Shown here in pieces: positions 9,107-64,000 of a DNA stretch of 64,000 nucleotides. The DNA is taken from assembly GCA_021202075.1 (NCBI GenBank), contig JAJQDT010000116.1, positions 62,001 to 126,000 of the forward strand. The letters are read 5' to 3'. The position numbers were made by a program, and so were the translations under genes. The notes below the pieces were generated by a model, which was not told the origin of the DNA, ran no database searches, and was given only the letters and a program-made list of their open reading frames with translations. Numbering within the stretch: position 1 is the stretch's first letter; the number at the start of each line of letters is the position of its first letter. The stretch is from Lachnospiraceae bacterium (GTDB lineage: Bacteria > Bacillota > Clostridia > Lachnospirales > Lachnospiraceae).

Positions 9107-9133
9107 ACTATTTTTCTCTCCTTAAAAAACCAA

Positions 9134-48019: not shown

Positions 48020-48065
48020 TCCTGACCTTCTATTTCTTGTGTTACCAGATGATTCAAATTCTCGT

Positions 48066-48426: not shown

Positions 48427-49320
48427 ATGAATTATTTGGACAAGCTGGAAGCAGAATCGATTTATATCATGCGGGAGGTTGTCGCGGAATGTGAAAAGCC
48501 GGTGATGCTCTACTCGATCGGCAAGGATTCCTCCGTGATGCTGCATCTCGCGCTCAAGGCTTTTTATCCGGAAAAGCCGCCTTTCCCGTTTCTGCATGTA
48601 AACACCACCTGGAAGTTTAAAGAGATGATAGAGTTCCGGGACCGGACTGCGAAAAAATACGACCTTGACATGATTGAATACATCAATCAGGAGGGACTTG
48701 CGCAGGGAATTAATCCGTTTGACCACGGCTCCGCCTACACGGATATCATGAAAACGCAGGCACTCAAACAAGCACTGAATAAATACGGCTTTACTGCCGC
48801 GTTCGGCGGCGGACGGCGCGATGAGGAAAAGAGCCGCGCGAAGGAGCGCATCTTTTCTTTCCGCAATGAGGAGCATGTCTGGGACCCGAAGAACCAGCGG
48901 CCGGAGATGTGGAAGCTGTTTAATACAGAAATCAATAAAGGGGAAAGCATCCGGGTTTTCCCGATCTCGAACTGGACGGAAAAGGATATCTGGCAGTACA
49001 TCAAGCGGGAAAATATCGAGATTGTACCGCTCTACTACGCTGCGGTTCGTCCGGTTGTGGAGCGCGACGGGAACCTGATTATGGTGGACGATGACCGTAT
49101 GCGGCTGCGCCCCGGTGAGGAGCCGATGATGAAAAAGGTTCGGTTCCGCACGCTGGGCTGCTATCCGCTCTCCGGCGGCGTAGAGTCCGAAGCGGATACG
49201 ATTGACGGGATTATCGAAGAGACCTTAAGCGCTGTTTCCTCCGAGCGGACCAGCCGGGTGATTGACAAGGACGGCGGCGCGGCCAGTATGGAAAAACGGA
49301 AGCGGGAGGGTTATTTCTAA
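48427..49320 (+). CDS. cysD: Sulfate adenylyltransferase small subunit
   Basis: A 297-residue PP-loop ATP pyrophosphatase that forms adenylyl sulfate (APS) from sulfate and ATP together with CysN. The PP-loop is [11 protein letters not shown] near residue 30; the family segments [17 protein letters not shown] and [15 protein letters not shown] are intact. AGGAG lies before the ATG. The stop overlaps the next start (TAATG), giving a tightly coupled two-gene unit. With no PAPS or APS reductase nearby, the product probably feeds sulfonation rather than assimilation; this is inference. Confidence 0.96.
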
Positions 49321-51143
49321 TGGATTCTTTATTAAAGTTTATCACATGCGGAAGCGTGGACGACGGGAAATCAACCCTGATCGGGCATATGCTCTATGAC
49401 GCGAAGCTTCTGTTCGCCGATCAGAAGGATGCCCTGGAGCTGGAGTCGAAGGTCGGCTCGAATGATGGAAACATTGACTACAGCCTTCTGCTAGACGGCC
49501 TGATGGCCGAGCGGGAGCAGGGCATTACGATTGACGTGGCTTACCGCTATTTTACCACGGAGCACCGCTCCTTTATCGTCGCGGACACGCCGGGACATGA
49601 AGAATATACGCGGAACATGGCGGTCGGCGCCTCCTTTGCCGATCTCGCCGTCATCCTGGTGGACGCGAGCCAGGGGGTTCTGACGCAGACGCGCCGCCAC
49701 ACGAGAATCTGCTCGCTGATGGGTATTCAGCACGTTGTTTTTGCCATCAACAAGATGGATCTGATCGACTACAGCCAGGAACGCTTCAAAAAAATTAAAA
49801 AGGAAATCCGCATCCTTCTCGCTGAGTTTGAGCATCGGAGTGTGCAGATCATTCCGGTCTCCGCTACCAACGGCGACAACATCACCAAAAAATCCAGGAG
49901 AATGCCCTGGTACAAGGGACCGACGCTTCTCCATTATCTGGAGACCGTCGATGTCAGCGAGAAGCCGACCGACGCCGAGTTTTCCATGCCGGTACAGCGG
50001 GTCTGCCGCCCGAACCGCAGCTTCCGCGGGTTCCAGGGACAGATCGAGAGCGGAAGCATCTCGGTCGGGGATCCGGTCACGGTTCTGCCAAGCCATGAGA
50101 CCTCGACCGTAAAGGCGATTCTGGAAGGGAATCAGTCCGTCGAGGAATCCAGCGTCGGGCACCCGGTCACCATCCAGCTCGACACAGAGATTGACGTTTC
50201 CCGCGGCTGCGTTCTCACAAAGGATCCGGAGCTCTACGTTAATACCATGTTTTCTGCGACTCTGCTCTGGATGGACGACACGAAGCTTGTCGAGGGGAAG
50301 AATTATCTTCTGAAATCCGGCACGCAGAAAATTCCGGCCACCGTTCTTCACATTCGTCACAAGATCGATGTGAACACCGGCCGCGAGGTACCGGCGAAGG
50401 AGATTTTCAAAAACGAGATCACGCAGTGCGACATCTCCGTCTCCTCAAACCTGGTATTTGACCTGTTTGAACACAACAAAACGCTCGGCTCCCTGATTCT
50501 GATCGACCGCATCAGCCACGCAACCGCGGCCTGCGGCGTCATCACACAGTCCATCAGCCGCAGCCGCGATCTCACCTGGCATACAATGGATATCACAAAG
50601 GAATTCCGCGAGAATCAGCTCGACCAGAAGGCCTGCACGATCTGGTTCACGGGTCTGTCCGGATCCGGCAAATCCACGCTCGCAAACGCGCTGGAAAAAC
50701 GCCTCGTCTCACTGGGCAAGCATACCATGCTTCTCGACGGCGACAACATCCGCCTGGGCCTGAACCGAAACCTCGGCTTCTCCGAAGCGGACCGCATTGA
50801 AAATATCCGCCGCATCGCCGAGGTCTCCAAGCTGATGAACGACGCGGGACTCATCGTCCTCACCTCCTTCATCTCTCCGTTCGTGCGCGACCGGAGAAAG
50901 GCAAAGGAAATCATCGGGGACGACTTTATCGAGGTTTATATCGACACGCCGATTGAAGAGTGCGAGCGCCGCGACGTGAAAGGCCTGTACGCGGCCGCCC
51001 GCGCCGGAAAGATTGAGCATTTCACCGGCATCAGCAGCCCCTACGAAAAGCCGCAGAAGCCGAACATCCGCATCGACACCACCAATCACAGTGTCGACGA
51101 ATGCGTCGACCAGCTGATGGAATATCTGAAGCCGCGGCTATAA
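49320..51143 (+). CDS. cysNC: Bifunctional sulfate adenylyltransferase GTPase subunit / APS kinase
   Basis: A 607-residue fusion. The N-terminal CysN GTPase domain has G1 GSVDDGKSTL, G3 DTPGHEEY and G4 NKMD, then two beta-barrel domains. From about residue 440 comes an APS kinase with Walker A FTGLSGSGKSTLA and the LDGDNIRLGLNRNLGFS and DTPIEECERRD segments. Together with CysD it converts sulfate to PAPS, the sulfate donor of sulfotransferases. A probable terminator follows at 51256-51288, and a sulfotransferase gene lies 208 bases downstream on the same strand. Confidence 0.96.
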   Translation: MDSLLKFITCGSVDDGKSTLIGHMLYDAKLLFADQKDALELESKVGSNDGNIDYSLLLDGLMAEREQGITIDVAYRYFTTEHRSFIVADTPGHEEYTRNMAVGASFADLAVILVDASQGVLTQTRRHTRICSLMGIQHVVFAINKMDLIDYSQERFKKIKKEIRILLAEFEHRSVQIIPVSATNGDNITKKSRRMPWYKGPTLLHYLETVDVSEKPTDAEFSMPVQRVCRPNRSFRGFQGQIESGSISVGDPVTVLPSHETSTVKAILEGNQSVEESSVGHPVTIQLDTEIDVSRGCVLTKDPELYVNTMFSATLLWMDDTKLVEGKNYLLKSGTQKIPATVLHIRHKIDVNTGREVPAKEIFKNEITQCDISVSSNLVFDLFEHNKTLGSLILIDRISHATAACGVITQSISRSRDLTWHTMDITKEFRENQLDQKACTIWFTGLSGSGKSTLANALEKRLVSLGKHTMLLDGDNIRLGLNRNLGFSEADRIENIRRIAEVSKLMNDAGLIVLTSFISPFVRDRRKAKEIIGDDFIEVYIDTPIEECERRDVKGLYAAARAGKIEHFTGISSPYEKPQKPNIRIDTTNHSVDECVDQLMEYLKPRL

Positions 51144-51255
51144 TATCCGCAAAGATTCATGGATCCGCAGCGATAAGTCAGCGGAATGCCATGATGCTGC
51201 AGTTATTAATCTGGTTGTCAGTGCAATCTTACAGCTATTTTTCCGACAAAAGAGA

Positions 51256-51288
51256 GCGGGCAGGAAACAGTTTTCGTCTCCTGCCCGG
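51256..51288 (+). terminator. Probable terminator of cysD-cysNC
   Basis: CGGGCAGGA/TCCTGCCCG stem with a 13-base loop; the following ATTATTATCTGTTTTC is T-rich but not a clean run. Partial readthrough into the sulfotransferase gene is possible. Confidence 0.55.
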
Positions 51289-51351
51289 TCATTATTATCT
51301 GTTTTCTGTTCTGCAGGCGCTGCCTTGAGCGCGAGTCCAAAAGGAGAAGCA

Positions 51352-52467
51352 ATGAAAACTCTGTATCTTCACATAGGCACACCGAAAACCGCCACTTCCT
51401 CCATTCAGGTTTTCTGTCTGAAAAACCGCCGCAGGTTCCGTAAATACAACTATTGTTTTCCGCTGCTCCCCCTGAAATATCCGAATATCCCGCTCAAGCG
51501 CAACGCACATTTTTTAGTGGAAGCTTCCGCCAAATGTGATATGATCTCCGTGAAAAAACAGGAAGAAACGGATTCCCAAAAACAAGACAGCTTCTGGGAG
51601 AAGCGGCTTTCTTCCGCTCTCTCAGCCATTCACCGGCAATTTGACCGTTATGATAATATCATCCTGTCAGATGAGAATCTCTGGCGCTCCATGAGCTACA
51701 ACCAGCAGAATCCTCTTGACATCCTGATCAAAGATGGCTCTGAGTACGGCTATCGCACGAAGGTCATCGTATACCTGCGGCGGCAGGATCAGTTCCTGAT
51801 TTCACGCTGGAACCAGCTCGTAAAAGATGAAATCATGCGCAGGCCGTTCCCGAAGCATCTGAAACGCGTTCTCTCAAACGAGCCTCTGATCGCGGATTAC
51901 GCCGCAGCGCTGGGCCACATCGCCGCGAAAATCGGAAAGGACAATATCATTGTCCGCCGCTTCGAGGCCTCTGCCTGGGTTGGCGGCTCTATTTACTCGG
52001 ATTTCACAAACGCCGCAGGATTAACAGATGCTGCCAATTTGAAGCTGCCCAAGAAAAAGGTCAACCCCGGCCTCAAATTGAATTACGCTGAAATCCAGCG
52101 CCGGATAAACGCCAGCCGGCAGCTTTCCGAAGAGGATAAGACATTTCTTGGTTATTTTCTGAGAAAAACATCCGCAGGCCGTTCGGAGCATGAGGAATAC
52201 GGTATACTTTCCGAAGAGGAGACCAGAGCCTTTCTGGCCCGTTTTGAGGAAGGCAACCAGCGGATTGCCCGGGAATATTTTGGGGAAAACGGCCCCCTGT
52301 TCTCCGATGAAATCAAATGTCAGAAAAAATGGACGCCGGATAATGCGTATATGGAGGAAGACCTGCTTGCTTATCTCGCTGCCCTTGGCAGCGCCGCCCG
52401 CGGGCACGGTATGTTAAAATTCAGATGTTTGCGGCTCCTGCAAAAAACAGGTCCGCGATTTCTGTAA
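51352..52467 (+). CDS. Putative PAPS-dependent sulfotransferase
   Basis: A 371-residue cytoplasmic protein with a sulfotransferase-type 5-prime phosphosulfate loop at the N-terminus (LYLHIGTPKTATSSIQ) and a later KVIVYLRRQDQFLISRWNQ that fits the 3-prime phosphate-binding Arg/Ser region. It is diverged from classic Sulfotransfer_1 proteins, and similar loops occur in bacterial carbohydrate sulfotransferases. Start 51352 follows AGGAG. It lies just downstream of cysD-cysNC, which makes its donor. Acceptor unknown; a surface glycan is suggested by the neighbours. Confidence 0.78.
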   Translation: MKTLYLHIGTPKTATSSIQVFCLKNRRRFRKYNYCFPLLPLKYPNIPLKRNAHFLVEASAKCDMISVKKQEETDSQKQDSFWEKRLSSALSAIHRQFDRYDNIILSDENLWRSMSYNQQNPLDILIKDGSEYGYRTKVIVYLRRQDQFLISRWNQLVKDEIMRRPFPKHLKRVLSNEPLIADYAAALGHIAAKIGKDNIIVRRFEASAWVGGSIYSDFTNAAGLTDAANLKLPKKKVNPGLKLNYAEIQRRINASRQLSEEDKTFLGYFLRKTSAGRSEHEEYGILSEEETRAFLARFEEGNQRIAREYFGENGPLFSDEIKCQKKWTPDNAYMEEDLLAYLAALGSAARGHGMLKFRCLRLLQKTGPRFL

Positions 52468-52510
52468 ACAGGCCATGCAGCGTTTTTCGGCGGCTTCCCG
52501 CAGAAAACAA

Positions 52511-52559
52511 TTCCGATTTTCGGGAATATTTCTTATAAAGCATTTCCGATTTTCGGGAA
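52511..52559. repeat. Two direct copies of the palindrome TTCCGATTTTCGGGAA
   Basis: Identical 16-base hairpin-forming sequences at 52511-52526 and 52544-52559, 33 bases apart, in the spacer between convergent genes. Too short a stem and no T-run for a standard terminator; may act as a paired terminator or processing site. Confidence 0.55.
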
Positions 52560-52564
52560 AAGCG

Positions 52565-53932
52565 TTATGGTCTTAGTTCCATCTCTACACGGATATCATT
52601 CCCTTGCACATGCACAGCTGCGTAGCTGCCGGTGATAAGCGGCATGGACGGCGGCAGATGCCCAAGATCCATATCCATGACGACCGGCACACCCTTACGC
52701 CCCGCCACGTCAAGCACCGCCTGATATTGATCCAGACCCATCACCGGCTCCAGAGCACTCAATGGCCGTCCGATCAGAAACCCTTTGACATAACGGAACC
52801 ATCCTGCGTGCTCCATCTGCCACATTGCCCGGCGGATGCCGAAGACGTTCAGATCACAGGCATCAAGAAACCAGATGACGCCGTCCTCTTTATATTTTTC
52901 CAGAAACTCATCCGTGTGATCATAGCAGGTGCCGAGCAGGTTCACCAGGCAGTCCAGGCAGCCGCCAAGCAGACGCCCTTCGAAGGCCGTTTCCGGGATT
53001 TCTTTTCCGGTCAGGATGGGATATCCAGAATTCCTCTCCTTCCTTCCGGAGCCTTCTGTACAGTTACCACCCGGCGATGCAGCTGAACAAAGCATCGCAT
53101 CGGAGCCGACAGCGCTGTATTCCCGCAAAGGCAGGTCCGATACGGCTGCCCCGGCATTGGACAAGCTCTGATCATTTACAGCAGTCCCATCATAAAGCTT
53201 TAATATCTTTCTCTCTGTCAGATTATAGGCAGCCAGAGGATTCTCCTCATCCTTTATCCCTTCGATTTCCCACTTCGGATAACCATGCACGCAAAATTTC
53301 GGAATCGGTTTCTTCGTCCTGTACGATGTCCCTGCGGCATCGCCAATCCCTTCGCCTTCCATTTTCCCCGGGGCGCAACTATTTCCGCCATCCTTCGAAT
53401 GATCTGCATAGTCCCTGGCACCACAGATGCCATCAGCATGCTCCGCCGCACCCTCTCCCGTCAGAATCGCAAACGCGTCTTTGAGAACCCTGTGCTGCGG
53501 TTTCATGCCAAACGAAGGCGCACACGGCCCGTAAATCGAAGCGGTATCGCAGATGGTCGCCAGCAGATAGGTCATGTTCGTATTGTCGGAAAATCCCATA
53601 TACCACTTCGCCGGAGCCGCCGCTATCTTTTCCCAGTCCACATAATCCAGAACCTCGCACATCAGCTCCCCGCCGCCGCAGGCAATCAGGCAGTCATTGT
53701 CCGCTTTCAGATAAAACTCCGTCAGCTCCTGTCCGCACAACTCTGGCGTGTTGCTGATCCCCACACCGCTTCCCTCAAAGCAGTTCGGTCCCAGGTCCAA
53801 TCCGTACCCCTGTTGCTTCCAGCGCCGCAGGGCATTCTCAAACGCGCTCTTATAAGGGTCGATATTGCAACCAAACGAGGGCGCCACAAAGCCGATCATA
53901 CCTTTTTTCTGTAAAAATTTTCCATATTTCAT
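52565..53932 (-). CDS. Peptidase S66 (L,D-carboxypeptidase/MccF-like) with large insert
   Basis: A 455-residue serine peptidase of family S66, which trims murein peptides or cleaves microcin-C-like aminoacyl nucleotides. The N-terminal VAPSFGCN, the nucleophile region WYMGFSDNTNMTYL and the late GGCLDCLVNLLGTCYD and GHLPPSMPLITG segments are present. Family members are about 300-350 residues; here some 110 extra Gly/Ala/Ser-rich residues lie around positions 165-310 within and beside the linker between domains. The frame is continuous. AGGAG precedes the ATG. Neighbours are envelope genes, which favours a cell-wall role. Confidence 0.87.
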   Translation of the reverse strand: MKYGKFLQKKGMIGFVAPSFGCNIDPYKSAFENALRRWKQQGYGLDLGPNCFEGSGVGISNTPELCGQELTEFYLKADNDCLIACGGGELMCEVLDYVDWEKIAAAPAKWYMGFSDNTNMTYLLATICDTASIYGPCAPSFGMKPQHRVLKDAFAILTGEGAAEHADGICGARDYADHSKDGGNSCAPGKMEGEGIGDAAGTSYRTKKPIPKFCVHGYPKWEIEGIKDEENPLAAYNLTERKILKLYDGTAVNDQSLSNAGAAVSDLPLREYSAVGSDAMLCSAASPGGNCTEGSGRKERNSGYPILTGKEIPETAFEGRLLGGCLDCLVNLLGTCYDHTDEFLEKYKEDGVIWFLDACDLNVFGIRRAMWQMEHAGWFRYVKGFLIGRPLSALEPVMGLDQYQAVLDVAGRKGVPVVMDMDLGHLPPSMPLITGSYAAVHVQGNDIRVEMELRP

Positions 53933-53974
53933 GCTTTTATTCTCCTGCCAGTTTTTAATTTTTCCGTATTTTCT

Positions 53975-55456
53975 CTACTGAAAAACAACCGTCATATCCT
54001 CTGGGATACCATAAAATTCCTTAAAATTTTTAAGCCAGCTATCATTCACTGGTTCTGTCATGTAACGCCAAGATGGATAAGGCATTATTGGTAAAACTAC
54101 TTCTTCCGCTCCGCTTTCCACAGCCGCCTCTATCTGCTCCTGGCGATAACGATCCGTCACACCATTCGCCATATAAATTCGAATATAAACTGCTCCCAGC
54201 ACTGTTACTGCCACAGCTGCAACAAGCGCAGGATACCAGAGAGAAAGGCTCTTCTCCTGTAACAGATACTGTATCAGTTTTAACAATGCCATACACTGCA
54301 TGACATAGCAGAAATAGTAGCAGCGCGCACCGGTAGGGCTCACAGCCATGAGCGGTGCTGCTGCTGCCGCTGAGCACAGGAGCAGGATACAAATACTAAG
54401 CCTGTGGCGCGGATCTACATTTCTCCATATGCACAAAAGTACCGAGACAAAAAATGCCAGAGTCATCAGCAATTCAATCGAATCATTAACAGCCTGGTTC
54501 GAGAAAAAGACCCATTCCGGACAAACAGAATGCCAAACACTATAAAATGCATATCCGCATACAATAATAGCAATAGCTGTATCTGCAAGAGAGCGTTTCC
54601 CTCTTCGTATCAACAACCAGATGAGTGTAATAGCAAGCACACTATTCAAAAGCCAATTATTAATAAACAGGAAATCGATTACGGTTTCCCGCAGCTGTGA
54701 AACCATCACTGTCAGTGATGCAGAGATACTCTTATAACCGCTTATTTTCCCAGAATCAGCCCGGTAGGCAGTATTCGAAAACATCAAAACGGCACCCAGA
54801 ACCGTTCCCGAGAGGTAAAGCAAATGAAGAAGATATACTTTTCCGCTTTTTGCCTTTGTATATATTACCATCCAAAGAGCATAAACCACAGCAAACAACG
54901 TGACATGCTCACAGAAAAGCTGTGTGGCCACACCCAAAGGCAAAGCCAAAAGTTTCCATCTGCTCTCCCTGACCATTCCTTCGGTATAAATGCTCTCCGT
55001 CCAATTAAACCAGGCCAAAAACAAAATTGCAGGCGGCACATAATTGGCAAAGCCGGAAAACCATCCATAAGTCTGCTGAAACAGAGATTGCGGAAGCGAA
55101 GTAAGCAAAAAGATTCCAAGCAGCAGAAGGAATAAAGAATTCTTATTCTCACTGCAATTCTTCTCTGATAAGCCCCTGTCAATTTCTTTTAACAGCCAGA
55201 TCATCCAGAGTGTTGGAATAAAAACCTTCGCGGCTACACTTCTGGTCAGTAAAAGTATTGTGATATTGCCCAGATATCTCCCGTTATAGTTACGAAACCA
55301 CCGCTTCATTAATCTCAGGCGGGCCGGAAGCCCCCACTTCCAGTCATCATGGCAATAGGGCAACTGATACGCAAGATATGCCACAACCACTAAAAATGAC
55401 AGATACATCAATATCCGAATCCATCGTCTGCCGCTTGTCGAATTTATTCTGATCAT
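53975..55456 (-). CDS. Polytopic membrane protein, GT-C/DUF6056-like
   Basis: A 493-residue protein with about 11-12 hydrophobic helices. The first extracytoplasmic loop has the acidic motif YCHDDWKWG and then GRYLGNITILLL, as in DUF6056-type and other GT-C-fold membrane glycosyltransferases. The start at 55456 is chosen by GAGGCGG. It is 108 bases downstream of the LtaS-like gene on the same strand and likely co-transcribed. Probable role: transfer or modification of a lipid-linked sugar at the outer face; the family is biochemically uncharacterised. Confidence 0.75.
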   Translation of the reverse strand: MIRINSTSGRRWIRILMYLSFLVVVAYLAYQLPYCHDDWKWGLPARLRLMKRWFRNYNGRYLGNITILLLTRSVAAKVFIPTLWMIWLLKEIDRGLSEKNCSENKNSLFLLLLGIFLLTSLPQSLFQQTYGWFSGFANYVPPAILFLAWFNWTESIYTEGMVRESRWKLLALPLGVATQLFCEHVTLFAVVYALWMVIYTKAKSGKVYLLHLLYLSGTVLGAVLMFSNTAYRADSGKISGYKSISASLTVMVSQLRETVIDFLFINNWLLNSVLAITLIWLLIRRGKRSLADTAIAIIVCGYAFYSVWHSVCPEWVFFSNQAVNDSIELLMTLAFFVSVLLCIWRNVDPRHRLSICILLLCSAAAAAPLMAVSPTGARCYYFCYVMQCMALLKLIQYLLQEKSLSLWYPALVAAVAVTVLGAVYIRIYMANGVTDRYRQEQIEAAVESGAEEVVLPIMPYPSWRYMTEPVNDSWLKNFKEFYGIPEDMTVVFQ

Positions 55457-55564
55457 TTTTCCGCCTCTTAATATTCTTTGCAAAAAACGTTGCAGCACAG
55501 TGCATATGTTTCCTGGATTAGCTTTTGCTTTCAAGCTTCAGTCATGAAAGAACCCTGTATCAAA

Positions 55565-58024
55565 TCATCCGAAGAAATCTGCCAGATCAGATAAGTTTCC
55601 AAACAGGTATCCATACTGCAGGAGTTTATAGGTTTCCGCCATATTGGCTGTTTCGCCATCCAGCTCATCTATAGACCAGTAATAATTCTCATCTGCATCT
55701 ATGCAGCCATTTACGTTGATGACAGGGAGAAATTCCATAAGTTCAGACAAAAAGGATTGATATCCGTTCAGCGGAAGTCCTGCAGCATCAAGCAATAGAG
55801 CGGACAGATAATTTGCACTCAGTTTTTCAATCTCAGCTTCTTCAATATCATAATTCGCCCATATAATAAAAGAAGTAGTATATTGTGCCTGTATCTTTTC
55901 CTGGTCGCTCTTATCAGATATCTTATTCATCAGATAATTGTATGTGTTATTGCTCATAAGCGGCCAGTGATCCCCAAACATCAAGATAATTACATGCTCT
56001 TCCTGTTGTTCAAAATATTCGATTAACTCTTGAAAAGCCAGATCGGACTCCCGCAGCAAAGCCAGATATTCCGCGGTCGTCTCATCAGTATCCAGATCAG
56101 AAAGTAGTGGATTTGCTATCTCGTTGGTATATCCATAGGAGTAACCGCCATGATTTTGTATAGTCACATCGAACAAGAAGAAATATTCGCTCTCCTGTTC
56201 CTCTTTCCAGGTTTCATAACGCTCCTCAATAGTCTGATAAGTAGCACGGTCTGAAGCTCTTGTACGGATGATTTCCGCATCCTCCACATCAGACTCAGAA
56301 ATAAATTCATCAAAGCCCAAAAGGGGGTACGCTTCGTCACGATTGTAGTTAGTCGCTTTTGAAAGGTGAAGAGCCGTTGTTGAGTACCCAAGACTTTTCA
56401 GATAAGTGACGAGAGATGGCGTCTCATCGTGAATATAAATCTGAAAAGGAATGCTCCCGCTCGGGAGAAAATTCATAGTAGATCCTGTGAGAAACTCAAA
56501 TTCTGTATTGGCGGTTCCACCCGCATATACCGATACATACAAATTCCCTTTTATTGTATTCTCTTCGAGAGAGTCAATAAAAGGAGTAACCGGCTCTGTA
56601 GTCTCTATTCCACCAACGCCGTTAAAATCCGTCCATGATTCATTCATAATCGCAATAATATTCGGGTATTCTTCTTCACTAAGAGCTTCTTCCTGATTCG
56701 CTTCATCCATATCTCCTGCTTCTTCCAAAATCCCGGCCGCTGCCTCACGAACGAGGTCGTCCGAATAATTATCCGGTTTTTCGACTACCTGAAAGCACTG
56801 ATATAAGTATGTGCCGAGAAAATATCCGTTCGTTTTATAAGTACTCTTAAGATTCCAGAAAATGCCGCCATTTCTGGAGGCAGACGCTTCCGCGGTCAGT
56901 GGCATAGAACGAATAACGAAAAAGCTGCCTGCTCCAAATAAGAGCAGCCCTCCGAGAATTCCCGCATAAACACGCGGACGGTAGCGTCTGAAACAAATTT
57001 TCCCTTCCCAAAGAAACAGCACAGCCAAAATCAATACCGCGACCACCATTCGTTCGGTAATATCAAACGTGTAGGAATCCGCGACATCCGCTGCTGTACC
57101 GACACTGAGGATGTCATATAAAACAAGAGGCGTGCCTCTGAATTCCAGCACATAATATTCCGCTATACCAAGTATAGTGCATAATACAGTGCCGCCATAC
57201 AGTACCAGTCTTCCCTTCCACAAGAGCAGGACGGAAAGTGCAATAAAAATATAACTGCACAGGATAACATTCAAAAGAATCGTCTTTGCATCCAGTTCCC
57301 AGATATAATTTCCCACAATATACTCCAGGAGAAAAAAAGAGAGCAAGGCATGGAAAAGAATAAACAAAGGAAACAGACAGGTTTCTCTCTTCGGAATAAA
57401 TGGATCGAAAAACACAAAGAGCAGTGCCAGTAAAGTCAAAATCAGACAAAGCCTCCAAAATACATTCCTGGTATAAGACTCCTGAAATTTGAATGTTGTA
57501 ATAATGCTCTGTTCTTGTACCACATCATTCACATACAGAACTCCTAAAATCGGAGAAGCGGCCTCAGTACATTTTGCGGTACGGAAAACCGGGTATTCAT
57601 CTTCTACACCCTCAAAAGTAATCGTATAATAATATTCCGCTCCTGCTACAACATTTACCTGAAAATCAAATTCCTGATTCCCTTTTTCTACCAACTCGGA
57701 ACAATCTGTTGTGACAGAAGCGATTTCTTTCCCATTCTTATCATATACCGTGACAATCATACTGCCAGTCTGCCCATGCTTCACAATTCGGGTATACAGA
57801 CAAGTCAGGATATCATCCTGTGGGTAGAACACCTGTTTTAAAACAGTCTCCGCATCCAGATCTTCGAGTTTTCCTTTTTCCTCAGACGAATCATATTCAG
57901 CCGTATATTTAGTCTTTTTTCCGTAAAACCAGCTGCGGCATGAGAATGTAAAGATAATACATACCAGAAAAAGCAGAAATGCAGTAATCCGAAGGAAATT
58001 CCCGTTTCTAATAATATTCTTCAT
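55565..58024 (-). CDS. LtaS-family phosphoglycerol transferase (sulfatase fold) with extra outer domain
   Basis: An 819-residue membrane enzyme. One helix (about residues 9-27) is followed by an extracytoplasmic beta-rich domain of about 150 residues, then a block of helices and a C-terminal sulfatase-fold domain from about residue 460. The latter has IIAIMNESWTDF (metal site), the catalytic Thr motif GGTANTEFEFLTG and the late LMFGDHWP. LtaS/MdoB relatives move glycerol-phosphate from phosphatidylglycerol to teichoic acids or surface polysaccharides. It is longer than LtaS (about 650), and the extra beta domain after the first helix is unusual. AGGTGG lies before the ATG at 58024. Confidence 0.88.
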   Translation of the reverse strand: MKNIIRNGNFLRITAFLLFLVCIIFTFSCRSWFYGKKTKYTAEYDSSEEKGKLEDLDAETVLKQVFYPQDDILTCLYTRIVKHGQTGSMIVTVYDKNGKEIASVTTDCSELVEKGNQEFDFQVNVVAGAEYYYTITFEGVEDEYPVFRTAKCTEAASPILGVLYVNDVVQEQSIITTFKFQESYTRNVFWRLCLILTLLALLFVFFDPFIPKRETCLFPLFILFHALLSFFLLEYIVGNYIWELDAKTILLNVILCSYIFIALSVLLLWKGRLVLYGGTVLCTILGIAEYYVLEFRGTPLVLYDILSVGTAADVADSYTFDITERMVVAVLILAVLFLWEGKICFRRYRPRVYAGILGGLLLFGAGSFFVIRSMPLTAEASASRNGGIFWNLKSTYKTNGYFLGTYLYQCFQVVEKPDNYSDDLVREAAAGILEEAGDMDEANQEEALSEEEYPNIIAIMNESWTDFNGVGGIETTEPVTPFIDSLEENTIKGNLYVSVYAGGTANTEFEFLTGSTMNFLPSGSIPFQIYIHDETPSLVTYLKSLGYSTTALHLSKATNYNRDEAYPLLGFDEFISESDVEDAEIIRTRASDRATYQTIEERYETWKEEQESEYFFLFDVTIQNHGGYSYGYTNEIANPLLSDLDTDETTAEYLALLRESDLAFQELIEYFEQQEEHVIILMFGDHWPLMSNNTYNYLMNKISDKSDQEKIQAQYTTSFIIWANYDIEEAEIEKLSANYLSALLLDAAGLPLNGYQSFLSELMEFLPVINVNGCIDADENYYWSIDELDGETANMAETYKLLQYGYLFGNLSDLADFFG

Positions 58025-58259
58025 TGTAACCGACCACCTGTTGACTGCAAATATAAAGATTAAATCTATTGACCATACATATAAATAAATCTTGATAATC
58101 CTAGCAAACAACATATAAATTGTCAATAGCATATTTTAGTGTCAGAAAACACCCATGTTGTATTGGGAAACCAAAGTTGCTTGCAAAGGAAAAATATCCT
58201 TCTTCTAAGCTTGCTAAAACGAAAAACCCATGCTATGATGTAGCTGGAGGAAATTAATT

Positions 58260-59906
58260 ATGGTTAAATGCTTACGTACTTTCTGCAATGTACTGTTTAT
58301 CGTCTTGTTCGGATTAATTGTAATTCAATTATTTCAATATACACTCAAAACTTACCCCACAGCTGTAGTTCTCCTTTTTCTGTTTTTTATAATTACACTT
58401 GTGTTCTTTCTTCGAATTTTCCGTGGGCACTCCTTTTATCATCCTCATTCATTTTCATATCATAAAGCCTGGATCCTGATCCAGTTGCCAGGTATTGCGA
58501 TCCTTATTGCTGCCTTTTTTACAAATAGAATCGAACCTGCCTGGGACTGGGGACACACCATCAATATAGCTATCCAGTACGCGACAAGTGGAACTACTAC
58601 TCTTCCCTCCTACGTTGCTGCCTATGCAAACAATCGTCTCTGGATTACGGTACTGATTTATTTTTTCAAAATCATCCTTCGCATCTGCCCATCAGCCAGC
58701 GCAGACAATATGAAAACCCTTCTTTGGGCTCTGAGCGATTTTCTGGTCATAGCGACAGTAAATCTGATTTATCTGTCTGCACGATGCCTTTTTTCTGAGA
58801 AAAAAGCCTTCTTTACCGGCGGGCTGGCCGCTCTCTATCTGCCGATTTATCTTTACGGACAGATTTCTTACACAGATATACCCGGACTCTTTCTTTGCTC
58901 ATTCATCCTCTATCTCTATTGCAGACTGCGTCAGGCAAAAGGACGCCAAACCTATCTGTGCCTGTGCTTTTTAGGCGGCGTCGCTGCAGTAGCCTATAAA
59001 ATCAAAGTTCTGGTTTTTATTCTGGTTCTCGCGATCCTTATTGAGGAGATTCTGAGAATCCTCTCGCTTTCCCATGCCCATCCTTGCGAAGCTCGTTCAT
59101 CGGCCCCCGGAAAGCTAACGCTCCCATTCGTCTCCAGAGTTTTTGATTTACCTGTCAAATCAGGATTTATCCTGCGTTTAAAAACCAGCCTGTTCCATGC
59201 GCTGATTGCAGTATGCGCATTTGGAATTATTTTTGGTGTCTCAAATCTTCTTATCAGTAGAGCGCTTGCTATTTCAGACGAGATAGTTGAAGAATATGAG
59301 ATCCCTCTGACGCACTGGATCATGATGGGACTGGATGGAAATGGCGGATATAGCGGTGACGACTATGCCTTTACCACAAGTATATCCGGTTATCAGGCAA
59401 AAGTGAACGCAACGGTTTCAGAAATCAAAGAACGGCTCGATAATCTGGGTGTGCAGGGACTGCTGAAACATATTTTTTATAAAAAGCTTCGGCGAACCTG
59501 GTGTAAATGCATGCTGGGTGCTGATAGCTATATATCCGAAAGCACATTGAAGGAGCGCACTATGTTTCAGAAACTATTTTACAAAAAAGGCTCTCTCTCC
59601 CTCCCCGTCCATATCATAACATCCGTTTATTATTTTATACTGATGCTTGGAGTTTTTGCCTCCGGAGTTTTTTCTTTCAGCAAAAGCTCTGCCGCAAATT
59701 CAACGGAAACGCTGCGCAGCAGTCTGACCTTTATCTGTCGAACCACTTTGATTGGCTTCTTTCTTTTTGAGAGTATCTGGGAATGCAACAGCCGCTACCT
59801 GCTCTGTCTGATCCCTGTGTTTATGCTTACGGCCGGAGATGGGCTGTTGCAAATAACTGCGTTCCTGCAAAAAATACTCCATCAAAACACCGCCTCACAC
59901 AACTGA
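58260..59906 (+). CDS. GT-C-fold membrane glycosyltransferase (PMT/ArnT-like)
   Basis: A 548-residue protein with about 11-13 hydrophobic helices. The first large outer loop holds NRIEPAWDWGHT with the conserved acidic residue and AYANNRLWI; ISYTDIPGLFL marks the second conserved acidic loop. Together these match GT39-like enzymes that use a polyprenyl-phosphate sugar outside the membrane. GGAGG precedes the ATG. A Ser/Pro/Ala-rich hydrophilic insert occurs near residues 275-295. It lies between an LtaS-like enzyme and a GT2 that could make its donor. Confidence 0.78.
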   Translation: MVKCLRTFCNVLFIVLFGLIVIQLFQYTLKTYPTAVVLLFLFFIITLVFFLRIFRGHSFYHPHSFSYHKAWILIQLPGIAILIAAFFTNRIEPAWDWGHTINIAIQYATSGTTTLPSYVAAYANNRLWITVLIYFFKIILRICPSASADNMKTLLWALSDFLVIATVNLIYLSARCLFSEKKAFFTGGLAALYLPIYLYGQISYTDIPGLFLCSFILYLYCRLRQAKGRQTYLCLCFLGGVAAVAYKIKVLVFILVLAILIEEILRILSLSHAHPCEARSSAPGKLTLPFVSRVFDLPVKSGFILRLKTSLFHALIAVCAFGIIFGVSNLLISRALAISDEIVEEYEIPLTHWIMMGLDGNGGYSGDDYAFTTSISGYQAKVNATVSEIKERLDNLGVQGLLKHIFYKKLRRTWCKCMLGADSYISESTLKERTMFQKLFYKKGSLSLPVHIITSVYYFILMLGVFASGVFSFSKSSAANSTETLRSSLTFICRTTLIGFFLFESIWECNSRYLLCLIPVFMLTAGDGLLQITAFLQKILHQNTASHN

Positions 59907-59977
59907 TTGCCATTATGCTTTTATCTATCCAGCTATTTTACGGCTTGTGCGAACGGTTTTGTGCATTGCGCTCCAAA

Positions 59978-60928
59978 TTACTGAAATAATTCTGTCTCCA
60001 CAATATAACGCGGGCGCTCTTTGACTTCCATATAAATATTACCGATGTATTGCCCGATAATACCCAGCGACAGCAAAATCATACCGCCCAAAAACCAGAG
60101 CGAACAGAACAGGGATGTCCAACCGCTTACCGTATTTCCCATAAAGTGACCAATCAAAGAATAAAGAATAGCAAAAATACTCACCAGAATGCTCCCGATT
60201 CCAACAAAAGAAATGAGCATCATTGGTTTTATACTGAAAGAAGTGATTCCCCGGAGAGCAAATGCGATCATTTTGTGTAGCGGGTATTTCGACTCTCCTG
60301 CCATTCGTTTCTTTCGCGTATAGTAAACTTCGGTACTCTGAAATCCAATGGTTGTCACGATGCCACGCAAAAAAAGATTCCGCTCTTTATATTTCTCCAG
60401 TTCATCCAGAGCCCGGCGACTCATCAGGCGGAAGTCCGCATGATTTTTCACTGTTTCCGCTCCCATCCATTCCATAAAGCAATAGAAAAGCTCTGCGGAT
60501 GTTCTTTTAAACCAGGTATCCGAAGAGCGGTCATTCCGAACACCGAACACAAGCTCGTTTCCTTCATCATATTTTTCAATCATTTCGCTGATCACAGAAA
60601 TATCGTCCTGCAAATCAGCATCCATCGATATCGTCATATCCACGAGCTCTCTTACACCCATAAGCCCTGCAAGTAACGCATTCTGGTGTCCGGAATTACG
60701 GGCAAGCTTCATTCCCCAAACAGTAGTACTGCTCTTCTCGTGCTCCCTCCGAATAATCTCCCAGGTTCGGTCACTGCTGCCATCATCGACAAAAACGAGC
60801 ATACTGTCCATCGCAATCTGTTCTTTTTCTTTTAACTCTTCCAAAAGCCCTGCAAGCTGCCGAATGCTTTCAGGAAGAACTGCTTCTTCATTATAGCATG
60901 GTACTACAATCGCCAGTCTGTCTGCCAT
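59978..60928 (-). CDS. GT2 polyprenyl-phosphate glycosyltransferase (GtrB/ArnC/DPM1-like)
   Basis: A 316-residue enzyme: an N-terminal GT-A domain (VVPCYNEEAVLPE, VDDGSSDRTWE, the DxD-like TISMDADLQDD, RMAGESKYPLHKMI) and two C-terminal helices (about residues 235-260 and 270-295). This layout is that of GtrB/YfdH enzymes that load a hexose from UDP- or GDP-sugar onto undecaprenyl phosphate. The product is the donor used by GT-C enzymes such as those at 53975 and 58260. AAGGA precedes the ATG. Confidence 0.92.
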   Translation of the reverse strand: MADRLAIVVPCYNEEAVLPESIRQLAGLLEELKEKEQIAMDSMLVFVDDGSSDRTWEIIRREHEKSSTTVWGMKLARNSGHQNALLAGLMGVRELVDMTISMDADLQDDISVISEMIEKYDEGNELVFGVRNDRSSDTWFKRTSAELFYCFMEWMGAETVKNHADFRLMSRRALDELEKYKERNLFLRGIVTTIGFQSTEVYYTRKKRMAGESKYPLHKMIAFALRGITSFSIKPMMLISFVGIGSILVSIFAILYSLIGHFMGNTVSGWTSLFCSLWFLGGMILLSLGIIGQYIGNIYMEVKERPRYIVETELFQ

Positions 60929-61154
60929 GTTGCTTTTCCTTCTTTCCTTTCCTGCTAAGGTTTAAATGATGTCTGGACAGTATTTATAAAACTACAAGAC
61001 CTGACAGCACAAACGGATAATCTCACGCAAAATTCAGGTATGTTGTTCTGGCAATGTGCCAGCTTTGACATTGATTAAGTTCTCCGAGCTTCACGGAATC
61101 AAGCTTCATTTAATTATAGCCATGTCCCCCTTCTTTTTCAACCATTTTCATTAA

Positions 61155-61184
61155 TTGGACAAATTTTTGCATGAGTGTTATACT
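61155..61184 (+). promoter_or_regulatory. Sigma-A promoter for the HD-domain gene
   Basis: TTGGAC, 18-base spacer, TATACT, with the start codon 35 bases downstream of the -10 box. Confidence 0.65.
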
Positions 61185-61218
61185 AATCAACAAACCACAA
61201 AAGAAGGGATGATTTTTG

Positions 61219-61815
61219 ATGAATGAAGAGCGCATCCGCCGGCAGTTTGCCTTCTGCCTGGAAATGGATAAAGAAAAGAATATCGGTCGGCAGACATATC
61301 TGTCGGACGGTGAGAGAAAAGAAAATGACGCGGAGCACGCGTGGCACATGGCCGTGATGACGCTGGTGCTTGGCGAGTATGCCAATGAAGACATCGACCT
61401 TCTGCGGACCATCGGTATGCTTCTGATTCACGATGTCGTGGAAATCGACGCAGGGGATACCTACGCCTATGATGAGGAAGGGAAAAAGACGCAACGGCAG
61501 CGGGAGCTGGCCGCAGCGGACCGTCTCTTTTCTCTGCTCCCGCCGGATCAGGGGGCTAAGATGCGGGCTCTCTGGGATGAATTCGAAGCCTGCGAGACGC
61601 CGGAAGCGAAGTTCGCGCGCACGATGGACAATATCCAGCCCGCGATGCTGAATGCGGCGGCGGGCGGAAAAGCCTGGAGTGAGAAGGGAGTCCATTTAAA
61701 TCAGATTCTGGAGCGGAATAAAAATACCGCGCAAGGATCGGAAGCGCTCTGGGACTATTCCCTCGAAAATTTCATCGAGCCGAATGTTAAGGATGGAAAT
61801 ATTCTGAAGGATTGA
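61219..61815 (+). CDS. HD-domain phosphohydrolase (YfbR-like)
   Basis: A 198-residue HD-family metal-dependent phosphohydrolase. The ligand residues appear as AEHAWHMAVM, LLIHDVVEIDAGD and a later ARTMDNIQP. The family includes the 5-prime-deoxynucleotidase YfbR and related nucleotide hydrolases. Start 61219 (ATG) is preferred to a TTG three bases earlier; AAGGG lies upstream. Its own promoter is visible at 61155-61184. No functional link to the sulfotransferase genes is evident. Confidence 0.9.
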   Translation: MNEERIRRQFAFCLEMDKEKNIGRQTYLSDGERKENDAEHAWHMAVMTLVLGEYANEDIDLLRTIGMLLIHDVVEIDAGDTYAYDEEGKKTQRQRELAAADRLFSLLPPDQGAKMRALWDEFEACETPEAKFARTMDNIQPAMLNAAAGGKAWSEKGVHLNQILERNKNTAQGSEALWDYSLENFIEPNVKDGNILKD

Positions 61816-61969
61816 AGCAATGTATTCCATTTCTTCATGCAGTTGGATTACTGCATTCACTTCCAGTATTGACAGAGCCTGAAAGCAGATAAAGTGCGAA
61901 ATAATAACCAGAATGTTTCTTGCACAGCCCAAAGTTCCCAATCTGCTTTTCTAATCTGAAACTATTTTG

Positions 61970-62100
61970 CAATCGGATAGGGAGCCCTCTCTCCCTATCC
62001 GCCGCGCGAGCCGGGTGCGGCTTTAGCCGCAAAACTCCCTCGCCGGGTGGCATCCCACGCTTCGCATGGGATATGCCTTGCCCGGCTCTGTGTATAAAAA
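61970..62100 (+). repeat. Structured intergenic repeat, family 1, copy E (with extra hairpin)
   Basis: 5-prime hairpin CGGATAGGGAG/CTCCCTATCCG (61974-62001); linker CCGCGC; outer stem GAGCCGGG/CCCGGCTC (62008-62015 with 62081-62088); nested hairpin TGCGGC-TTTA-GCCGCA (62016-62031); AAACTCCCT; an inserted hairpin GGCATCCCA.../TGGGATATGCC (62049-62077); tail TGTGTATAAAA. A terminator follows at once. Confidence 0.85.
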
Positions 62101-62131
62101 AAGAGCGCCCCCAGCGCTTCTTTTTTATTAT
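62093..62131. terminator. Terminator between HD and sulfotransferase genes
   Basis: AAGAGCGC/GCGCTTCTTTTTT hairpin with A-run and T-run on opposite sides; bidirectional between convergent genes. Confidence 0.75.
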
Positions 62132-62158
62132 TCATCAATTTTTATCTGATATCTGATC

Positions 62159-63217
62159 TCACGCCGCATCCTGCGGGCTGCATCCGCATCTGGCTGTTCC
62201 GTCTTTTGCCTTACCTGCTTTATTCAGATGCTCCTTGGCCGGATACCAGAGCTCGGAGAGGTCTTTTCCGGAGAGCTTCTCGATCCCGCGGACTTCGTCC
62301 GCGAAATACGCCTCCAGATACTTCCGTGTCTGCGGCAGCATCTGGCTTTTGTCCTCATCCGGGAGGAAATATTCCTGTCGTTTTCTATCATAAAAGCCCT
62401 TAAACCGCCGGTAGGCGTTCGGCAGCCAGTAGGTCAGCGCCACAAACTCGTAAAAGCCGTAATTGAAGCCTTTGATAATCTTAAAGATCCACGCAGCATG
62501 GCTCGAGGTGGCCCGCTCGTTCCCCTCATTGGCACGGATGGAATAGTCCAGGCTCTCGTCCTCGCCGATGCCGATATAGTCGAATAATTCCCGGCAGGAA
62601 GCCTTCTCATCGCGGACAAATTCTTCGAAAAATACCAGGCGTATATTTTTTCGGGGAAAATGATCCAGATATTCCCGGATACAGCTGTAATATTTGCTCT
62701 GTGAAAAGACCAGATATTTCAGACGGCTTTTCATGATCTGTTTTTCCTGCGCGGGGTCGTCCAGCACAGTATGGACATAGCGGTCAAACGCTTCGGCATG
62801 GCCATATTCCTGATCCATCTCCACACACCCTTTGGGCAGAAACCCGCGAGCCAGAAAATATTTATACGAGGAATACGCGCGATCCACCGGATTGCGCATC
62901 ATAAAAATCAGTTTGGTATCCGGGGAAAAGTCGTGGCAGATTTTTTTTGCGCAGCCGGTAAATGTCAGTCCCGCATTCACCTCGCCGCAGCGCCTCGGAT
63001 CGTCCTTCGCGATATGACCGTAATAGCGCAGCTTATAATACCATTTACGCCCGAAAAACCACAGACCCTCGACACGGTAATACATCGGCTCCTTCACATC
63101 GCGGCAGAGTACTACATCCTTGTGCTGTCTCAGTATTTCAAATAATGTCGTTGTCCCGCATTTCTGAAATCCCATACACAGGAACTCAGGATTCCTGCCC
63201 TTCCCTCTGCTGCTCAT
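62159..63217 (-). CDS. PAPS-dependent sulfotransferase (Sulfotransfer_1 / heparan-type)
   Basis: A 352-residue cytoplasmic sulfotransferase. The 5-prime phosphosulfate loop is MGFQKCGTTTLFEIL near residue 15, and the 3-prime phosphate-binding motif is LIFMMRNPVDRAYSSYKYF (Arg and Ser). The overall pattern resembles the N-deacetylase/sulfotransferase-like carbohydrate enzymes. GGAGG lies before the ATG. It shares the region with cysD-cysNC and with another sulfotransferase at 51352. The C-terminal Cys-containing tail (ARCGCSPQDAA) is unusual. Acceptor unknown; a polysaccharide or lipid is likely. Confidence 0.92.
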   Translation of the reverse strand: MSSRGKGRNPEFLCMGFQKCGTTTLFEILRQHKDVVLCRDVKEPMYYRVEGLWFFGRKWYYKLRYYGHIAKDDPRRCGEVNAGLTFTGCAKKICHDFSPDTKLIFMMRNPVDRAYSSYKYFLARGFLPKGCVEMDQEYGHAEAFDRYVHTVLDDPAQEKQIMKSRLKYLVFSQSKYYSCIREYLDHFPRKNIRLVFFEEFVRDEKASCRELFDYIGIGEDESLDYSIRANEGNERATSSHAAWIFKIIKGFNYGFYEFVALTYWLPNAYRRFKGFYDRKRQEYFLPDEDKSQMLPQTRKYLEAYFADEVRGIEKLSGKDLSELWYPAKEHLNKAGKAKDGTARCGCSPQDAA

Positions 63218-63261
63218 CGCACATCCTCCGATGTATGCCAGTATAAATATTTATAAATGCT

Positions 63262-64000
63262 TTACAGAAACGATTCCCACAGCATCATAAGTCCCAGCCC
63301 GAACAGTACCACGCCGGTCACACGGTTCGTTGTCTTGTCCTTCATGTGGTTCGAGATCGCCGCGGCCGCCAGGGCGGATACCAGGGTAAACGCGATGCAT
63401 AGCAACAGCGCCGGAATATAATTCGTGACGTCTCCGAAATAAAAGTGAGAAACTGCCCCGGTAAAGGCGATAAACGTCATCACAAACACACTGGTTCCGA
63501 CTGCGGTCTTTAAATCGTAGCGAAGAATCGTCGTGAGGATAAACAGCATCATCATCCCGCCTCCGAGACCCATGAAACCGCAGTAAAAACCGATACAGAC
63601 GCCGCAGATAATCGAAAGCAGCATCCGCCGGTTTTTCGGAATATGGATTCCAAGGTCGGCCTGTTTTGTGGCGGGAAGAACTATGAACCGCAGCCCCAAA
63701 AATGTGGTAAAGATGACTGAGAGCCGTCCCATCTCCAGATCCGGCATATACTGAGAGAAATAGCTTCCCAATATCGTCATGAACAGCACCGCCGCCACCA
63801 TGATCAGCCCATGCTTCAGATCCAGATTGTCATTTTTTCTATATACACATGCAGAAAATGCAGATGCAAGCGCATCAGATGCAAGCCCGATTCCTACCGC
63901 TTCATACCACGGAACGCCCAGGAATGTCACCAGCATCGGCACAATCGCCGTCGTCGCGGACATCCCGGCAAACCCGGTGCCTACGCCCGCCGCGATTCCG
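63262..64000 (-). CDS. TSUP/TauE-SafE family anion exporter (5-prime end beyond window)
   Basis: A cut membrane protein; at least 246 residues are visible and the open frame runs past base 64000. Several helices with the duplicated family pattern GIAAGVGTGFAG...GIGLASDALAS and CGFMGLGGGMMMLFIL identify the TSUP (TauE/SafE) family, whose members move sulfite, sulfoacetate, sulfolactate or other organic anions. It ends 44 bases before the sulfotransferase gene start on the same strand, so both may share a transcript. That pairing fits a sulfur-related role but the substrate is not proven. Confidence 0.85.
   Translation of the reverse strand, partial: GIAAGVGTGFAGMSATTAIVPMLVTFLGVPWYEAVGIGLASDALASAFSACVYRKNDNLDLKHGLIMVAAVLFMTILGSYFSQYMPDLEMGRLSVIFTTFLGLRFIVLPATKQADLGIHIPKNRRMLLSIICGVCIGFYCGFMGLGGGMMMLFILTTILRYDLKTAVGTSVFVMTFIAFTGAVSHFYFGDVTNYIPALLLCIAFTLVSALAAAAISNHMKDKTTNRVTGVVLFGLGLMMLWESFL

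Follow-up and report, generated by a model that had tools for sequence, protein, structure and literature searches.

A Candidate Sulfation Module with an Uncatalogued Sulfotransferase-Like Family and Its Links to Cell-Surface Glycopolymer Genes in Lachnospiraceae

In a 64,000-nucleotide stretch of a Lachnospiraceae genome (GenBank assembly GCA_021202075.1, contig JAJQDT010000116.1; hereafter the window, that is, the whole stretch of DNA that was analyzed), the genes cysD and cysNC, which encode enzymes for the synthesis of 3'-phosphoadenosine 5'-phosphosulfate (PAPS), were found between a chrA-like anion transporter gene and a sulfotransferase-like gene, here named stfA. A second sulfotransferase gene, stf2, and a transporter gene of the TSUP family are located nearby. 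Genome comparisons gave good support to the view that chrA, cysD-cysNC, and stfA, together with the nearby stf2-TSUP pair, represent a dedicated sulfation module, whose acceptor is probably a cell-surface glycopolymer. The window corresponds to bases 62001–126000 of contig C40 of a draft genome (G000; 5.55 Mb; 95% complete, 5.5% contaminated), and because the assembly is a draft, absences from this genome are not absolute. Genomes, contigs, and loci are designated below by G, C, and L numbers.

Linkage of cysD-cysNC, stfA, and Transporter Genes

The chrA-like gene (46478–48070, minus strand) encodes a CHR-family (PF02417) anion transporter (Pfam Chromate_transp, 129 bits, cut-off 28.6). It lies directly upstream of cysD, in divergent orientation, and was overlooked in a preliminary description of this region. 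The cysD gene (48427–49320, plus strand) encodes the small subunit of ATP sulfurylase (NCBIfam CysD equivalog, 511 bits, cut-off 413), and cysNC (49320–51143, plus strand) encodes the large subunit fused to adenosine 5'-phosphosulfate (APS) kinase, whose P-loop is intact (NCBIfam PRK05506, 857 bits, cut-off 715). Both proteins thus exceed curated cut-offs and both the CysN and the APS kinase parts are present, in agreement with the complete PAPS synthesis that had been proposed from the sequence alone. The stfA gene (51352–52467, plus strand) was recognized by its motifs and by a 59-sequence family; the mechanically called open reading frame (ORF) starts with TTG at 51325, and the ATG at 51352 agrees with the family alignment. 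Further downstream, stf2 (62159–63217, minus strand) encodes a Sulfotransfer_1 protein (PF00685, 55.6 bits, cut-off 22) and adjoins the TSUP (TauE/SafE) anion transporter gene (63262–64000, minus strand; PF01925, 118 bits), which runs off the window.

StfA was located within 10 kb of cysD or cysNC in 20 of the 33 StfA-positive genomes of the same genus and in 13 of the 19 scored genomes outside it (14 of 21 when G155 is included by coordinates). This scoring was based on a local hidden Markov model (E ≤ 1e-8) and ORFs of at least 90 amino acids, and left out G237 (fragments) and G155 (ORF unscored). When StfA clusters were counted instead, 22 of 40 in the genus and 13 of 27 elsewhere were cys-linked, compared with 0.24 and 0.21 expected from random placement, an expectation which assumes independence, an assumption that fails within the genus. 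The cysD-cysNC pair is flanked by one to four StfA copies, and the gap between cysNC and stfA was less than 40 bp, on the same strand, in 11 of 17 modules measured. In one locus (L064), the co-directional order is PF04464-TagD-PF04464-cysD-cysNC-stfA-chrA, cysNC and stfA being 13 bp apart and stfA and chrA 7 bp apart.

A ChrA-like gene is also present in the module of nine other cys-linked genomes of the genus (the background frequency of the CHR family lies outside this count) and in 4 of 13 cys-linked genomes outside the genus (loci L129, L139, L141, and L148, the last with a short ORF), and ABC-transporter-like genes adjoin StfA in L131–L133. The fact that unrelated transporter families occupy the same place suggests that these transporters may supply sulfate or balance anions. 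In L133, a gene for CysQ, the phosphatase of 3'-phosphoadenosine 5'-phosphate (PAP), scored above its cut-off and separates cysNC from stfA; such a phosphatase would be expected to accompany a PAPS-using transferase. Elsewhere, at approximately 7015–9481 of L146 (G354:C30), cysD-cysNC is broken into several reading frames beside stfA, by either decay or sequencing error; the same genome has a second APS kinase on its contig C78.

The phylogeny of StfA sheds additional light on the window copy, which falls in a clade of eight sequences (support 99). None of the other seven is cys-linked, and four of them are within 10 kb of PF04464 genes (in G007 and G011). On the tree, the window StfA is also separated from those cys-linked copies that occur in the second part of the genus. 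Thus, an StfA lineage that belongs to glycopolymer clusters elsewhere adjoins cysNC in the window genome, a parallel which argues for function rather than inherited order. This was a quick LG+G4 tree of 94 of 98 rows, in which sequences shorter than 270 amino acids were dropped and N-termini were trimmed to the motif; on it, the cys-linked label would have to change 16 times and the PF04464 label 15 times, both raw counts with no shuffled expectation.

Co-occurrence of Sulfotransferases and APS Kinase

We then considered the distribution of these genes in 397 genomes drawn evenly from the family, with few candidates scored per genome and the StfA, kinase, and PF00685 searches taken as covering the same 397. 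StfA was detected in 23 genomes and a strong APS kinase in 51. All 23 StfA-positive genomes contained the kinase, compared with 28 of 374 StfA-negative ones (Fisher P = 1.6e-23, ignoring relatedness). PF00685 was detected in 14 genomes, 13 of which have APS kinase and nine of which have it within 3 kb by coordinates. Either sulfotransferase family occurs in 33 genomes, and 32 of these possess the kinase.

A similar picture was observed for the 47 genomes of the genus, where 34 have both kinase and sulfotransferase, one has the kinase only (G012, 71% complete), two have a sulfotransferase only (G003 and G006, 88% and 65% complete), and ten have neither. The kinase count here refers to 35 matches with E < 1e-60 (at E ≤ 0.001 the tally was 39 of 47, the rest scoring 20–24 bits), and PF00685 was counted over its cut-off, which excluded G022. 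Across the family, these patterns suggest a rule that a kinase-bearing CysNC often accompanies sulfonation (32 of 51 kinase-positive genomes have either sulfotransferase family).

StfA, a Putative PAPS-Dependent Sulfotransferase-Like Family

For the window StfA, Pfam and NCBIfam gave no match at E ≤ 0.001, and no Pfam sulfotransferase model matched even at E ≤ 1. When 59 members were compared with the Pfam sulfotransferase models at E ≤ 1, PF13469 matched 12 of them (best E 0.02) and PF00685 matched nine (best E 0.0032); on these scores, StfA is assigned to neither family. An alignment of 59 of the 62 reference sequences (a fragment in L070, one L079 copy, and L081 were left out) revealed six invariant residues (H7, G9, K12, E108, Y141, and R143) and two nearly invariant ones (T13 and S151). 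Two conserved segments stand out, HIGxPKTGTT and YLRRQDxFxxSxW, which we take to be the 5'-phosphosulfate loop and the 3'-phosphate motif, respectively; E108 as a catalytic base is our guess. The window copy has the loop HIGTPKTATSS, the RRQD...S segment, and E108. Because of these motifs and the tie to APS kinase, we consider StfA an uncatalogued sulfotransferase-like family, putatively PAPS-dependent.

Searches of the PDB retrieved unrelated proteins first, both with the window StfA alone (best E 0.17) and with the StfA profile (best E 0.11), the latter also giving the sulfotransferase 3rnl at E 0.2. A scan of viral contigs with the StfA alignment gave no relative, and a scan of genome contigs gave four loci. 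Stf2, the only PF00685 match found in G000, is related to 3rnl and to heparan 3-O-sulfotransferases. The proposal of two different sulfotransferases in this region holds for Stf2 by PF00685 and for StfA by motifs and family membership, the latter falling outside the Pfam and NCBIfam models. Since the window StfA is missed by both databases, sulfation capacity is probably under-reported.

Glycopolymer Genes beside StfA in Related Genomes

In several lineages, StfA is accompanied by genes of cell-surface glycopolymer synthesis, especially PF04464 (CDP-glycerol glycerophosphotransferase, TagF-like). In L044 (G011), two StfA genes are located in or at the end of a cluster which includes two GT2 and one GT4 glycosyltransferase (GT) genes, PF04464, Stealth, a pyruvyl transferase, and a flippase; L046 has most gene clusters in common with L044. 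In both L073 and L064, cysD is next to a TagD-like gene and a pair of PF04464 genes. L148 (G216) carries, on one strand, APS kinase-ChrA-StfA-TagD-PF04464-GDPD phosphodiesterase, its TagD protein being 84% identical to the L073 counterpart. In L145 (G213:C37:1501-14550), positions 2392–12807 contain five diverged tandem stfA copies with 4-bp overlaps, followed on the same strand by genes for a pyruvyl transferase, PF04464, ribitol-5-phosphate cytidylyltransferase (TarI), and an epimerase. In L082, two PF04464 genes and a phosphoesterase gene precede StfA, and G240 has two further StfA loci in the glycopolymer-linked set. TagD of L148 and TarI of L145 scored above their NCBIfam cut-offs, and the TagD-like proteins of L064 and L073 were identified by PF01467 only. 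PF04464 together with TagD or TarI was thus found beside StfA or the module in L064, L073, L145, and L148.

A PF04464 gene lies no more than 10 kb from stfA in 13 of the 40 clusters of the genus (0.59 expected, the clusters not being independent) and in 4 of 27 others (0.81 expected, P = 0.009); the PF04464 positions used here exclude genomes without StfA and some second matches on StfA-free contigs. In addition, three genomes in which no StfA was found (G008, G016, and G017; loci L088, L090, and L089) have cysD-cysNC approximately 3–5 kb from the nearest PF04464 gene and a PF00685 gene on another contig. The flanks in G008 also contain genes for an ABC ATPase with a fused UDP-galactopyranose mutase domain and for ribitol-5-phosphate cytidylyltransferase. 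In the window itself, no TagD or TarI model appeared in the Pfam results of the ten proteins scanned.

Possible Acceptors

These data are consistent with the following scheme. The ChrA-like or TSUP transporter, or ABC transporters in some relatives, would supply or balance sulfate; CysD and the CysN part would adenylylate it, and the kinase part would phosphorylate APS to PAPS, in G000 only at the window locus. With PAPS as donor, StfA and Stf2 could then sulfonate hydroxyls on a cell-surface glycopolymer, or on a precursor of it, in the cytosol before export, and the resulting PAP would be hydrolyzed by a phosphatase such as the CysQ encoded inside the L133 module. A surface glycopolymer is, in our judgment, the probable acceptor. 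Among such polymers, a phosphate-containing, teichoic-acid-like one is the most likely candidate because several lineages have stfA linked to genes for CDP-glycerol glycerophosphotransferase, TagD, or TarI, and we propose this narrower identification tentatively. An equally tentative generalization is that a sulfation system widespread among Lachnospiraceae-like Clostridia may make sulfated glycerol- or ribitol-phosphate wall polymers, in places pyruvylated, by means of an uncatalogued sulfotransferase family which is often encoded in tandem. The teichoic-acid-like sulfated polymer suggested in the preliminary description has in this way gained partial independent support from StfA genes beside PF04464, TagD, or TarI in relatives, and the reason originally given for it, a set of gacH-, gtrB-, and GT-C-like genes, proved to be a local insert (see below).

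Several observations weigh against a sulfation module of this kind or against a surface polymer as its target. With regard to the window locus, the 208-bp gap between cysNC and stfA, which contains an inverted repeat, is wider than in most relatives; because of the gap and the repeat, the two genes may not form one operon, and stfA may be transcribed separately. With regard to StfA, a few members matched coiled-coil models at lower E values than sulfotransferase models; the profile comparison between StfA and Stf2, made with four close Stf2 sequences, was weak (probability 9.7%, E 0.0033), with both motifs in register; and a structure prediction from four sequences was poor (pLDDT, a per-residue confidence score, of 49). 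Foldseek and VIA-align placed generic P-loop folds first, a result not taken as functional evidence. With regard to the acceptor, most StfA clusters have no PF04464 gene within 10 kb (27 of 40 in the genus and 23 of 27 outside it, some contigs ending nearby), and none of the three PF04464 matches in G000 is on the module contig C40. In eight loci of the genus (L014, L049, and L051–L056), StfA is instead located by a LysR-like gene and near a dnaX-like gene, both names being read from sequence. Among the 28 kinase-positive genomes of the family sample that lack StfA, the kinase and a PF04464 gene lie 10 kb or less apart in only one (G293), and 19 of the 51 kinase-positive genomes have neither sulfotransferase family. 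Finally, the counts within the genus are not phylogenetically independent.

Two side observations concern the same genes. The repeat between cysNC and stfA in the window (51257–51287) is a 13-bp G+C-rich inverted repeat whose minus strand has a T-rich tail. At 5269–8798 of L014 (G000:C78), two StfA genes lie around the LysR-like gene.

The best-surviving alternative is that the acceptor of the module is a capsule or exopolysaccharide which lacks glycerol and ribitol phosphate, in which case the PF04464 links would reflect phosphate decorations or a general clustering of surface genes. Consistent with this, StfA of G010 and G014 is found in a GT/UDP-sugar dehydrogenase cluster akin to L044 and L046 with no PF04464 nearby, and L152 has WbsX, GT2, and GT4 genes. 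On the other hand, TagD-like or TarI genes, which point to CDP-glycerol or CDP-ribitol, adjoin StfA or the module in L064, L073, L148, and L145. We regard this alternative as possible but somewhat doubtful; it overlaps with the proposal of a surface glycopolymer, which spans such polymers as a whole.

The main rival outside the surface is sulfation of small molecules such as sterols, bile acids, phenols, or secondary metabolites, as described for BT_0416 with cholesterol. The BT_0411-BT_0416 region follows the same logic of a transporter, PAPS genes, and an adjacent sulfotransferase (PMC9417993), and many StfA copies are in no visible glycopolymer cluster. Against this stand the recurrence of StfA near PF04464, TagD, or TarI genes and in or near flippase/GT clusters, and the five diverged tandem StfA copies by TarI and PF04464, which better fit a polymer modified at multiple sites. 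A small-molecule acceptor therefore seems unlikely to us.

Composite Structure of the Window Locus

The 15.6 kb from cysD to the end of the window had been described as a single island. The comparison with relatives indicated that this region is a composite of three parts: the recurring core cysD-cysNC-stfA, with the ChrA-like transporter gene alongside; a syntenic block of genes for an S66 peptidase, an HD protein, Stf2, and TSUP; and a low-GC insert of four genes for two GT-C proteins, a GacH/LtaS-like phosphoglycerol transferase, and a GtrB-like glycosyltransferase.

In the syntenic block, the S66 LD-carboxypeptidase-like gene (52565–53932, minus strand) was assigned by Pfam and the HD-domain gene (HD_3/YfbR-like; 61216–61815, plus strand) by Pfam and synteny. 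Three relatives, L096 (G010), L084 (G011), and L085 (G007), have the order bglX-cysD-cysNC-S66-HD-stf2-TSUP, in which chrA, stfA, and the four surface-glycan genes are missing, S66 adjoins HD, and TSUP adjoins stf2. An S66 gene was near cysNC in 12 of the 15 fetched loci from relatives which have stfA elsewhere or not at all; in part of the genus it is a conserved neighbor of cysDNC, with no sign of a role in sulfation.

The insert (53975–60928) lies between S66 and HD and has a GC content of 41–44%, compared with 50–57% in neighboring genes, although low GC is not special to it (43% at window positions 10001–12000). Its genes encode a DUF6056 GT-C-like membrane protein (53975–55534, minus strand; PF19528; GC 43.5%), the GacH/LtaS-like phosphoglycerol transferase (55565–58132, minus strand; PF00884; GC 41%), a GT-C-like membrane glycosyltransferase (58260–59906, plus strand; PMT_2, with TIGR03766 below its cut-off), and a GtrB/PgfS-like polyprenyl-phosphate glycosyltransferase of the GT2 family (59978–60928, minus strand; PF00535, with the PgfS model at 218 bits, below its cut-off of 500). 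The two GT-C proteins, the GtrB-type enzyme, the cell-wall peptidase, and the TSUP exporter of the preliminary description were all located by Pfam. Its LtaS-type phosphoglycerol transferase needs some revision: an LtaS/GacH-like gene is present, and its product scored 50.4 bits against the NCBIfam LtaS equivalog, far below the cut-off of 970, its best solved relative being GacH (5wcx, E 4e-22), ahead of LtaS. The GGTANxEF segment is conserved in the alignment with the solved GacH domain.

No ORF labeled as gacH, gtrB, or GT-C was found in the StfA or cysNC loci of relatives, which included flanks of approximately 10 kb, and the block was rejected as part of the recurring module. Of the neighborhood expected earlier, the association of cysD-cysNC with sulfotransferases thus recurs, and the GacH/LtaS-like gene was not seen with it. 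The insert could still decorate the same surface with glycerol phosphate and a side-chain sugar, a suggestion based on proximity. That cysDNC, both sulfotransferases, and the GacH-like, GtrB-like, and GT-C genes all act on one polymer is favored by their adjacency within 15.6 kb and by the resemblance of the insert genes to the gacH-L decoration genes (PMC12282279). The difference in GC, the absence of all four genes at the same place in L084, L085, and L096, and the lack of any of them, as labeled, in the StfA or cysNC loci of relatives make such a single island improbable.

Sulfur Metabolism of the Window Genome

A genome-wide search of G000 with PF01507 retrieved four matches. Two are CysD proteins, that of the window and another on contig C96, and the remaining two are weak matches on C80. 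The strong match on C96 was rejected as a PAPS reductase since it is a CysD, and the two on C80 were rejected as assimilatory CysH (26–30 bits, among phage-like genes); beyond these, nothing PAPS-reductase-like was found by this model. The C80 genes (L007, 7315–10457) are two PAPS-reductase-like genes in phage-like surroundings, probably not assimilatory.

The C96 operon encodes CysD, a 623-residue CysN, and the alpha subunit of adenylyl-sulfate reductase (864 bits, cut-off 557). It also includes genes for a sulfate-type ABC ATPase and for a sulfite-reductase-like protein, which Pfam assigns to NIR_SIR and for which the best NCBIfam model stays under its cut-off. Its CysN (L006, G000:C96, 5340–7211) has a degenerate C-terminus which lacks the kinase P-loop and is perhaps the remnant of a former CysNC. 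A PF01583 search of G000 detected a single APS kinase, the window cysNC. Because the C96 CysN lacks the P-loop and the only APS kinase found is in the window, G000 appears to split the pathway, with APS directed towards cysteine on C96 and PAPS made at the window locus; the C96 CysDN and APS reductase would presumably serve cysteine synthesis. The statement that no APS or PAPS reductase is visible is correct inside the window, and the genome has an APS reductase operon on C96. A reductase operon elsewhere, combined with no conserved linkage to the sulfotransferases, had been named as evidence against sulfation; the operon exists, and the linkage recurs. The use of PAPS for sulfonation is upheld by the sole APS kinase found in G000, by the missing P-loop on C96, and by the kinase in 23 of 23 StfA-positive family genomes.

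APS reductase needs no PAPS. Hence, although the window CysD is 81% identical to that of the C96 reductase operon and in G181 the cysD-cysNC pair next to StfA is followed by sulfate ABC-type genes, it is very improbable that cysD-cysNC is a second assimilatory operon with sulfotransferases as incidental neighbors, given that G000 possesses an APS reductase operon complete with a separate CysDN, yielded with PF01507 no PAPS-reductase-like gene other than the matches listed above, and belongs to a group in which the kinase co-occurs with sulfotransferases.

Comparison with Known Systems

If the acceptor is a wall polymer, these bacteria, perhaps gut inhabitants, would carry sulfated surface glycans, with a bearing on surface charge, recognition by phages and antibodies, and competition for sulfate. 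A sulfated teichoic-type polymer would, if true, give bacterial walls an equivalent of the sulfated glycans found in animals. A phrase search for "sulfated teichoic acid" gave no report, and no paper was found which combines sulfate ester, teichoic acid, Gram-positive, and sulfotransferase, most subscription journals being outside both searches; among the titles and opening lines of abstracts on sulfated teichoic acids or wall polymers, nothing closer was found than the systems below.

What is already known includes PAPS-sulfotransferase clusters in Bacteroides (PMC9417993), a predicted sulfated exopolysaccharide of an actinomycete (PMC13390465), and sulfated capsules of marine bacteria (PMC11641403, PMC11766843). 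The streptococcal gacH-L decoration genes resemble the window insert in having GacH-like, GtrB-like, and GT-C proteins (PMC12282279); the insert differs in that it was not seen with the sulfation module in relatives and its proteins are below the LtaS and PgfS equivalog cut-offs. The marine capsules, reported from Vibrio KMM 8419 (PMC11641403) and Cobetia (PMC11766843), are similar to the proposed product in carrying sulfate on a bacterial polysaccharide; they are Gram-negative and, as described there, involve no teichoic-type polymer.

The wps-1 cluster of Actinoplanes missouriensis is a Gram-positive cluster with two predicted sulfotransferases of different families and a proposed sulfated polysaccharide (PMC13390465). 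Its product is a predicted Wzx/Wzy exopolysaccharide of an actinomycete, the term PAPS is absent from the main text of that report, and no TagD or TarI link was noted there. The Bacteroides region BT_0411-BT_0416 is like the window module in that a proposed sulfate importer, PAPS synthesis genes, and a sulfotransferase are adjacent to one another (PMC9417993). Unlike that system, whose reported acceptor is cholesterol, StfA falls outside the Pfam cut-offs, is sometimes encoded in tandem, and is linked to teichoic-type genes in some relatives, features which set it apart from BT_0416 by description rather than by sequence comparison.

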